Positions 13,127 through 49,442 of a DNA stretch of 64,000 bases are shown piece by piece (positions within the stretch are counted from its first letter, which is position 1; each line of letters begins with the position of its first letter). The translations under genes were made by a program, and so were the position numbers. Below the pieces are notes generated by a model. It ran no database searches and was not told the DNA's origin. It worked only from the letters and a program-made list of their open reading frames with translations. The stretch spans positions 1-64,000 of the forward strand of contig JAUXUQ010000002.1 of NCBI GenBank assembly GCA_030680605.1, given 5' to 3'. The stretch is from Gammaproteobacteria bacterium. Lineage in GTDB: Bacteria > Pseudomonadota > Gammaproteobacteria > SURF-13.

Positions 13127-13372
13127 TCATGTAGATTGCGTGGCCTGCCATTCGGCAGGGGTAAGTGTACGCAGGGCGAGGGCGTGAATGGCCGAGTGCA
13201 TGCTGTCGCCGAGCGTGGCGTAGACCAGGCGGTGTTGCTGTACCGGGGTTTTGCCCGCAAAGGCCGCGCTGACCACGATGGCCTCAAAGTGGCTGCCGTC
13301 TTCGCCGCTGACCTGTGCCTGGCTGTCGGGCAGCCCGGCTTCGATCATGCGTTTGATGGTTTCAGCATCCAT
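13127..13372 (-). CDS. ibaG: BolA/IbaG family protein
   Basis: Small cytoplasmic BolA-fold protein of 81 residues from ATG 13372; the frame also allows ATG 13387. The family partners with monothiol glutaredoxins in iron-sulfur handling. Signature region: HFEAIVVSAAF followed by the conserved QQHRLVYATLGD segment that ends the fold. Its place just upstream of murA and downstream of the mla genes is that of E. coli ibaG, hence the symbol; the role is inferred from position and family. The gap upstream of it is filled with perfect hairpins. Confidence 0.85.
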   Translation of the reverse strand: MDAETIKRMIEAGLPDSQAQVSGEDGSHFEAIVVSAAFAGKTPVQQHRLVYATLGDSMHSAIHALALRTLTPAEWQATQST

Positions 13373-13404
13373 AGTGGCGGCCTGCAATGGGGTATTAGTT
13401 AGAT

Positions 13405-13557
13405 GTCAGAGTAAGACCATCCCTGGTCTTACTCTGACGCGAAAACGAAAAAATGTGATTTTTCTTTTTCTTCATTTTTCAAAGACCTTTCGTCTTTGAA
13501 AAATGGCGGTATATCCCTATACCGCGCTAGCAGCGTGCTTGTCAGCACGCTGCTAGC
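13405..13557. repeat. Cluster of four perfect palindromes (hairpin array)
   Basis: Four perfect inverted repeats lie between the ABC permease stop and the bolA-like start. H1: 13405-13419/13424-13438, 15-base arms, loop TCCC. H3: 13473-13486/13492-13505, 14-base arms. H4: 13506-13513/13518-13525, 8-base arms, loop TCCC. H5: 13526-13539/13544-13557, 14-base arms, loop TGTC. H3, H4 and H5 abut without a single spacer base. A weaker AT hairpin (arms GAAAAA/TTTTTC, 13447-13464) lies between H1 and H3. On the minus strand, which is the transcribed one, the loops read GACA, GGGA, GAAAG and GGGA. None is followed by a T-run in that direction. Confidence 0.9.
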
Positions 13558-13564
13558 ATACCGG

Positions 13565-14344
13565 TTAAGCACGGATTTTGTAACCTTTTTGCAGTAAAAA
13601 CAGGCATACGGCACTGATCGCTACCGCAAAACCGGCGGTAATGGTCAGACTCAGCAGCGGTGTGACATCGGAGACGCCGAGCATGCTGTAGCGGAAGCCG
13701 TCAATCATGTAGAAAAACGGGTTCAGGCGCGAGGCATCATGCCACAGCGGCGGCAGGTCATGAATGGAGTAAAACACGCCACTCAGAAATGACAGTGGGA
13801 CGATGATGAAATTTTGCAGCGCGGAAAGCTGCTCATAGGTGTCGGCCAGAATCGCCACCACGATGCCGAGCGCGCCCAACACCAGACTGGCCAGTAATGC
13901 GAAGGCGATCATGCCGCCGATATGCGCGAGCTGCAGGTCGGTGAATGCCAGCGCTGCCAGATAGACGCCCACGCCCACCAGCAGGCCGCGCAGCATCGCT
14001 GCGCCCACATAGGCAAGATACAGCTCGGCGCTGGAGAGCGGCGCCAGCAGCACAAACACCAGGCTGCCGTTGACCTTGGATTGAATCAGGCTGGAGGAGC
14101 TGTTGGCAAAGGCATTCTGGATCACCGCCATCATGACCAGACCGGGCACCAGAAAGGCGGTATAGCCGATACCGTCGTAGACCTGTACGTGATCGGTCAA
14201 CACCTGCTGAAAGATCAGCAGATACAGCAGTGTCACCGTAATGGGCGTGAGCAGTGTCTGCACCGTCACCTTCAGGAAGCGCCAGACCTCCTTCCAGAAC
14301 AGGGCCAACAGGCCGCGTGGATTGCTGAAGGCGTGGGTCTTCAT
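13565..14344 (-). CDS. ABC-2 type transporter permease
   Basis: Inner-membrane permease of 259 residues with six hydrophobic segments and the ABC-2 family signature region SFLSGVFYSIHDLPP near the C-terminus. It resembles YadH/NodJ-type exporters. Its start overlaps the stop of the ATPase gene by four bases (ATGA), so the two form one transporter. The substrate is unknown. The pair is placed between mlaB and the bolA-like gene, which suggests but does not prove an envelope-related cargo. A run of perfect hairpins begins seven bases after its stop codon. Confidence 0.9.
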   Translation of the reverse strand: MKTHAFSNPRGLLALFWKEVWRFLKVTVQTLLTPITVTLLYLLIFQQVLTDHVQVYDGIGYTAFLVPGLVMMAVIQNAFANSSSSLIQSKVNGSLVFVLLAPLSSAELYLAYVGAAMLRGLLVGVGVYLAALAFTDLQLAHIGGMIAFALLASLVLGALGIVVAILADTYEQLSALQNFIIVPLSFLSGVFYSIHDLPPLWHDASRLNPFFYMIDGFRYSMLGVSDVTPLLSLTITAGFAVAISAVCLFLLQKGYKIRA

Positions 14345-37752: not shown

Positions 37753-37944
37753 AGGCATCTCCTGTGGTGTACGTGAGCGGGCCGGGTAATCCCTTGAGCC
37801 TTAATTCATACCTACGGGAACCCCCATATCGATGTTGTTGTGCATGTCCTCCCCTGGAGGAAAGCCTGATACGTCGTCCGGGTTCCCACTTGAACCCCCA
37901 GGTTCAAGGTCGAAGGTCAGTCACGGCACCGGCGGGAGATGCCT
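37753..37944 (+). ncRNA. ssrS: 6S RNA
   Basis: About 190-nt RNA that binds sigma-70 RNA polymerase and mimics an open promoter. The closing stem is GGCATCTCC (37754-37762) with GGAGATGCC (37935-37943). Inside are features matching E. coli 6S RNA by memory: GAGCGGGCCGG, CCCTTGAGCC, TTCATACC in the left half of the bubble, AAGCCT and the CTTGAACC...GGTTCAAGG hairpin on the 3' side. The position between zapA and the 5-formyltetrahydrofolate cyclo-ligase gene is diagnostic. Exact ends are estimated. Confidence 0.9.
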
Positions 37945-49145: not shown

Positions 49146-49293
49146 TGCAGAGCCTGAAGCGGATTCAAAATTGAGGCACCCATGGTACTGACAACGCTGT
49201 CGCCAAGTCTATACCGATCAGCGTTCCCCACCCTGCGGGCAGGGGTGGTACCGGCTTGCAAAGCCGCCTGCTATCAGCTACGGTGCAGGAGGC

Positions 49294-49396
49294 AGCTAGG
49301 GGTGTTTGTTCATGTGTTGCGCATGGGCAGGCTGAGATGGGGCGCAAGCCCATAACCCTTTGAACCTGATCCGGTTAACTCCGGCGTAGGAAAGCG
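49294..49396 (+). promoter_or_regulatory. TPP riboswitch (THI element)
   Basis: Thiamin-pyrophosphate-sensing leader before thiC. Conserved pieces in order: AGCTAGGGGTG at the 5' side, GGCTGAGATGG (49330-49340) of the pyrimidine-sensing helix, then ACCCTTTGAACCTGATC-CGGTTAA and CCGGCGTAGGAAAG (49355-49395) of the pyrophosphate side and 3' closing helix. ThiC starts about 50 bases downstream behind AAGGTG. No T-run hairpin is obvious between them, so control by hiding the ribosome binding site is the likelier mode. Confidence 0.95.
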
Positions 49397-49442
49397 GCAG
49401 CACGTTTTGCCTGCGCCCGTGGCATAGACATATTTAAGGTGA

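Follow-up and report, generated by a model that had tools for sequence, protein, structure and literature searches.

Bacterial MITEs are usually viewed as non-coding debris with occasional effects on neighbouring genes, and in REP/RAYT systems a single short palindrome is tied to a RAYT, with no target duplication. The best comparable MITE, MITEAba12 of Acinetobacter, is about 113 bp long, makes 9-bp duplications and has a weak predicted structure (PMC6382973). Among regulatory RNAs, the CsrB, CsrC and RsmX/Y/Z decoys are each encoded by one chromosomal gene under a regulated promoter of its own, while CsrA binding has been proposed from motif matches for the TwoAYGGAY (RF01731) and Bacillaceae-1 (RF01690) RNAs (PMC4333381). 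The CsrA consensus obtained by SELEX is RUACARGGAUGU; its GGA lies in a loop that mostly has six bases, and the ligands mostly had no more than four contiguous pairs; RsmE complexes contain an ANGGAN hexaloop, and the CsrB repeats read CAGGA(U/A/C)G (PMC7652899). Here, we describe a palindromic element from a 64,000-nucleotide stretch of gammaproteobacterial DNA (the window, i.e., the whole stretch that was analysed). Judging from sequence comparison, we consider it, with a probability of roughly 0.6, to be an IS5-type MITE whose interior is selected as a five-hairpin RNA, with CsrA-type GGA loops in the second and fifth hairpins (H2 and H5), and which would serve as a dispersed decoy.

The element fills the gap between an ABC-2 type permease gene and ibaG (Table 1), which contains all the perfect hairpins of at least 12 bp in the 64 kb (mean of 0.0 in block-shuffled windows). 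The initial annotation had described four perfect stems of 15, 14, 8 and 14 bp in this gap, with zero spacing at the junctions 13505/13506 and 13525/13526. All four stems and both junctions were confirmed at their positions; however, a fifth, imperfect hairpin (H4) had been left uncounted. The minus-strand RNA folds to -98.9 kcal/mol, compared with -39.1 kcal/mol (sd 3.5) for shuffled sequences (z = -17). As for the statement that no T-run follows any of the hairpins, the 8-bp stem of H2 is in fact followed by CATTTTTCAA on the minus strand, and a simple terminator scan flags H2 as terminator-like. These T's, the only candidates, form the left arm of the H3 stem and are paired there, which rules out an intrinsic terminator and leaves intact the earlier view that the hairpins are not plain terminators. 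A promoter scan, which covers the sigma-70 type, detected no such promoter in the element region.

Table 1 Features of the permease–ibaG gap in the window.
Feature	Position	Strand	Description
ibaG (BolA family)	13127..13372	-	PF01722; downstream of the element
ABC-2 type permease gene	13565..14344	-	PF01061; upstream of the element
Whole insert with its target duplications	13399..13556	-	Minus-strand order H1-H2-H3-H4-H5; empty site in G001/G002
Target duplication copy CTAG	13553..13556		5' side on the minus strand; one mismatch to the other copy
Target duplication copy CTAA (minus strand; TTAG on plus)	13399..13402		Followed by a second CTAA at 13395-13398
H1	13526..13557	-	14-bp perfect stem; elsewhere in the family the place of the 5' terminal repeat
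H2 GCGGTATAGGGATATACCGC	13506..13525	-	8-bp perfect stem; loop AGGGAU, resembling CsrA/RsmA-type ANGGAN
H3 CATTTTTCAAAGAC(GAAAG)GTCTTTGAAAAATG	13473..13505	-	14-bp perfect stem; GNRA loops frequent in the family on the minus strand
H4, imperfect	13441..13470	-	Arms 13441-13452 and 13459-13470, 11/12 pairs; apical AUCACAU; seen in the window sequence and in the family alignment
H5 GTCAGAGTAAGACCAGGGATGGTCTTACTCTGAC	13405..13438	-	15-bp perfect stem; loop C-AGGGAU-G, second candidate CsrA-type site

Two other RNAs were recognized elsewhere in the window on the plus strand: a 6S RNA at 37756-37942 (RF00013, 84.7 bits) and a TPP riboswitch at 49288-49409 (RF00059, 67.5 bits). The element itself had no match in Rfam, and neither did 15 loci of its family at E ≤ 0.1 (gathering and relaxed thresholds).

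A search for the unit in its own genome and in relatives, as the initial annotation had proposed, proved productive. A DNA search revealed copies in the own genome besides that of the window. With a covariance model built on the H2-H5 core (R1), nine copies were counted there (C2:13404, C2:172234, C10:102862, C12:56837, C19:23201, C21:16119, C21:74968, C1:212208 and C1:207218), the other rows being opposite-strand echoes of the same palindromes. Many were also present in relatives. A pattern scan of named genomes returned 88 stretches, nearly all from uncultured Gammaproteobacteria (including Muproteobacteria RIFCSPHIGHO2_01_FULL_65_16, SURF_13, Bin_2_1_1 and NC_groundwater_1694) plus one Halothiobacillus; matches in a Halalkalibacter and a Prochlorococcus were discarded as unrelated, as was clear from their flanks. 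The R1 model matched 76 of 369 genomes drawn evenly from the class, with copy numbers under fuller scoring of at least 92 in G020, 71 in G217, 44 in G163 and 26 in the closed genome G265. Of 398 genomes drawn from across the phylum, 44 had matches, and 41 of these lay outside the own class, mostly in one family. The element family thus spans at least two classes of Proteobacteria. Its members are about 150-170 bp long and almost all intergenic, four lying within predicted genes. The element had no match in plasmid and phage collections, and no published description of the family was found in the open-access literature.

Several variants were observed. In the closed genome G024 (L325, 1451-1819), three H2-H5 units stand in tandem, multiplying the GGA loops in a CsrB-like manner. 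At five loci (L048, L058, L083, L093 and L111), a short hairpin (GUACAGGAUGUAC or a similar one) with a GC-rich tail behind it takes the place of H5 and the 3' terminal repeat, and the GGA loop persists although the rest is new. In genome G003 (L231, 1722-1860), the ibaG-permease gap is occupied by another insert; it forms two hairpins with GGA loops, GCCCAGCC-AGGGAT-GGCTGGGC and CGCCACGGACGGCCGCG, and may represent a second such repeat family.

The boundaries of the copies bear the marks of transposition. The ends of aligned copies carry one of several types of short terminal repeat (GGAACCTCTGATTAA, CAGGCTGTTGAAAAA or GAGGGTGTCGCAAAA) and are flanked by 4-bp YTAR target duplications. For copies with the first terminal-repeat type (type A), the duplications, mostly TTAA, TTAG or CTAA, were identical in 27 of 38 cases and differed by at most one mismatch in 35 of 38, compared with a permutation expectation of 6.1 identical pairs on average and 13 at maximum. 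Several of these genomes also contain IS5-family transposons whose ends are identical or closely similar (L168, L169, L170, L171 and L177), autonomous partners having been sought for the first terminal-repeat type. The transposon in L168 (1312-2483) carries GGAACCTCTGATTAA at both ends and a duplication of ATAA, and the two transposon proteins checked matched NF033581 ('IS5 family transposase') at an E-value of about 1e-104 (2e-104 quoted). Neither PF01609 nor PF05598 genes were found in the own genome, and its copies are therefore probably immobile now. In two genomes of the same genus, G001 and G002, about 39 bp separate the permease gene from ibaG, and the empty site reads CGGTATG-CTAA-CGTCCCAT, corresponding to CGGTATG-CTAG-[element]-CTAA-CTAATACCCCAT in the window, which indicates that the window insertion is lineage-specific and took place at a YTAR site. 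At its ends, the window copy has CAGCGTGCTGACAAG and ATGTCAGAGTAAG, which match neither each other nor the family ends; it has lost recognisable terminal repeats, with H1 and H5 still forming perfect hairpins, and it is assigned to the MITE family by homology, by the empty site and by comparison with the other copies. Taken together, the ends, the duplications and the empty site identify the palindromes as one copy of a MITE mobilised by IS5-family transposases.

Compensatory change was abundant inside the element. Among 83 distinct rows, each of the 33 modelled base pairs shows substitutions in both partners, and 96.9% of the cells pair, compared with 65.9% after shuffling and about 39-46% after sliding, percentages that lean upward since the alignment was fitted to the structure; RNAalifold on a MAFFT alignment (A1) showed two-sided changes at 22 of the 33 pairs. 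Mismatches provide a strand-specific measure: RNA selection tolerates G·U, whereas correction of DNA palindromes should leave G·T and A·C equally often, so that an excess of G·U on the minus strand marks selection at the RNA level. With stems located by Watson-Crick matching only, and the rare mismatches counted and collapsed per genome, the G·U:A·C ratio on the minus (GGA) strand was 187:64 overall, 72:30 in H1 and H5 (whose pairs were not in the search model), weak in H5 alone (21:16), and 73:22 in a second copy set; related copies are not fully independent, and p-values are only a guide here. In addition, among the four-base loops found in H3, 39 conform to GNRA on the minus strand and one does so on the opposite strand. 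These data strongly support an RNA-level constraint on the GGA strand, and they indicate that selection has kept the interior as a five-hairpin RNA across at least two classes, with terminal repeats that vary. The early suggestion of a strand-specific folded RNA is thus backed by the conserved minus-strand loops, the surplus of G-U over A-C and massive covariation.

Two loops of this RNA, those of H2 and H5, are conserved as GGA. In thermodynamic folds of 170 copies, GGA occupied the loop of H2 in 145 of 155 cases and that of H5 in 121 of 132, compared with 5/145 for H3 and 1/162 for H4; 90 further copies from other genomes gave 83/87, 73/79, 4/76 and 0/88, respectively. Pooled, these counts amount to 228/242 (H2) and 194/211 (H5) versus 9/221 (H3) and 1/250 (H4), i.e., about 93% versus about 2%, and the complementary TCC was seen in H2/H5 loops only once in 453. 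In distant genomes, every stem sequence has changed, e.g., GCGCGCCCATGGACGGGCGCGC or CCGAAATATGGATATTTCGG, and the GGA is kept. The two TCCC loops noted originally were read correctly, being the plus-strand view of these conserved GGA loops; their assignment as GNRA tetraloops (GGGA) was dropped, since other copies carry AGGA, UGGA or CGGA and thereby keep GGA in a manner fitting ANGGAN, the real GNRA loops being those of H3. The commonest H2 site is C-ANGGAN-G (111/155), the window sites are UAUAGGGAUAUA (H2) and CCAGGGAUGG (H5), and a natural copy in G001 (L041) reads GUACAGGGAUGU, an exact match to the SELEX consensus. By sequence and predicted fold, the H2 and H5 loops have the shape of the CsrA/RsmA recognition hairpin, and this motif identity makes CsrA the quite probable partner of the element RNA. 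The stems are much closer to perfect than an RNA function normally demands; since the SELEX ligands mostly had four or fewer contiguous pairs (PMC7652899), such very stable stems may hinder CsrA. The own genome carries a csrA gene, as do eight of nine genomes checked overall. Across the class, CsrA was found in 66 of 76 genomes with the element and 247 of 293 without it, a comparison that is uninformative because CsrA is near-universal there (85%). H4 keeps an apical A-Y-C-R-C-R in all copies (AUCACAC, ACCACGC), which CsrA does not explain; this motif may bind something else.

The orientation of the copies was also examined. Between co-directional neighbours, as called by a home-made gene finder, 45 elements were sense and 48 antisense, so that the sense bias expected of local cis-regulation is absent. 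A further 53 copies lay between convergent genes and 25 between divergent ones, the convergent share (53/171) exceeding that of neighbouring gene pairs (125/688; baseline pairs 466 co-directional, 125 convergent and 97 divergent). This lack of a local orientation rule implies that conservation of the RNA works at the level of the whole element, for instance by way of the subset of copies that are transcribed in the GGA sense, and we infer that selection acts on the element lineage rather than on each insertion site. The initial annotation had reasoned that randomly oriented copies devoid of compensatory changes and of a transcript would amount to a mere pile-up of palindromes; the orientation is random indeed, but compensatory changes are clearly present.

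A question raised from these findings is whether an RNA function is needed at all. An IS5-type MITE without one, its palindromes kept by DNA processes such as inter-arm template switching and its loops being hitch-hiking relics of a successful master copy, would agree with the random orientation, with near-perfect Watson-Crick stems showing few intermediates, and with the clear hallmarks of transposition (duplications, IS5 ends and empty site). Nevertheless, DNA correction would treat G-T and A-C alike, yet G-U exceeds A-C about 3:1; nor can such an element keep two GGA loops where every stem sequence has changed, or yield GNRA loops on one strand only. We regard this explanation as improbable, its refutation being largely in hand. 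Slightly less probable still is that the loops bind a protein other than CsrA, which could be the transposase, a different RNA-binding protein or a binder of single-stranded DNA acting on an extruded cruciform. The retained loop motif of H4 would suit such a protein, as would genome G127, which is near-complete (95%), has nine scored element matches and yields no CsrA match. Set against this are the detailed correspondence to the CsrA hairpin (A-N-GGA-N, C-G closing pair, variable N and paired sites), the action of IS5 transposases on double-stranded ends, and the G-U excess, which points to RNA instead of DNA.

Explanations confined to the insertion site or to RAYTs fare worse. As a local cis-regulator, or a stabiliser or insulator of mRNA, the element would shield the mla-ABC message upstream of it or exert control over ibaG-murA; the window copy does have co-directional genes on both sides and lies in the GGA sense, its H5 GGA being about 50 nt before the ibaG start, and copies are enriched between convergent genes. 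However, the insertion is missing from genomes of the same genus and the family is randomly oriented, so a local role cannot explain the conservation of the element; we consider it very unlikely as the main function, although the window copy may have such a role as a side effect. The least credible reading is a REP/RAYT-type palindrome. The initial annotation had considered a composite REP/MITE-like element recalling RAYT-linked palindromes, and the MITE half of that idea stands, given the target duplications, the terminal repeats of IS5 type and the relatives' empty sites. The RAYT link does not: the copies are many and intergenic, and the genome has two Y1_Tnp (IS200/RAYT-like) genes (G000:C21:36029-36352 and G000:C1:250371-250694), but the terminal repeats and 4-bp YTAR duplications are of IS5 type and the ends are common with IS5 transposons.

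The preferred reading, a MITE with a selected CsrA-type RNA interior, would operate as follows. IS5-family transposases mobilise the element, and some copies would be transcribed in the GGA sense by read-through, as inside the mla-ABC-ibaG-murA gene string that holds the window copy. The transcribed RNA would offer two putative CsrA sites per copy, and many copies would jointly act as a dispersed decoy for CsrA, much as CsrB or RsmZ do. A role as such a decoy instead of a local regulator is a weaker part of this proposal. At the window copy, read-through would place the GGA loops about 50 (H5) and 145 nt upstream of the ibaG start, making a side effect on ibaG-murA possible. A bolder and rather doubtful extension is that a widespread selfish element titrates host CsrA, each new copy adding decoy sites and shifting CsrA-controlled lifestyles.

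What distinguishes this family is an element interior kept as RNA across at least two classes and displaying the predicted site of a global regulator, CsrA. If CsrA binds, tens of mobile sites in each genome belong to the Csr network in many uncultured Gammaproteobacteria and related bacteria, and regulation comes to depend on the number of transposon copies; if the decoy reading is true, a transposon family acts on a global regulator through RNA. In the open-access literature, we found no paper joining the MITE part (nearest: MITEAba12) with the CsrA part (nearest: TwoAYGGAY and Bacillaceae-1). The element shares dispersed intergenic palindromes with REP/BIME sequences and their RAYTs, but differs in its IS5-type ends, target duplications and larger composite unit. 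GGA-loop hairpins and a CsrA role proposed by motif also characterize TwoAYGGAY and Bacillaceae-1, which, however, belong to other host groups and are not described as mobile, and whose Rfam entries are not matched by the 15 family loci. As in the CsrB, CsrC and RsmX/Y/Z decoys, more than one GGA hairpin loop of the ANGGAN or CAGGA(U/A/C)G type occurs per RNA; unlike those decoys, the element is mobile and dispersed, with two GGA loops, no visible sigma-70-like promoter and no counterpart in Rfam. Finally, it resembles MITEAba12 (PMC6382973) in being short, non-coding and multicopy, with target duplications and with terminal repeats common to co-resident transposons, but is set apart from it by 4-bp YTAR duplications, a covarying five-hairpin RNA interior and a spread over many families.
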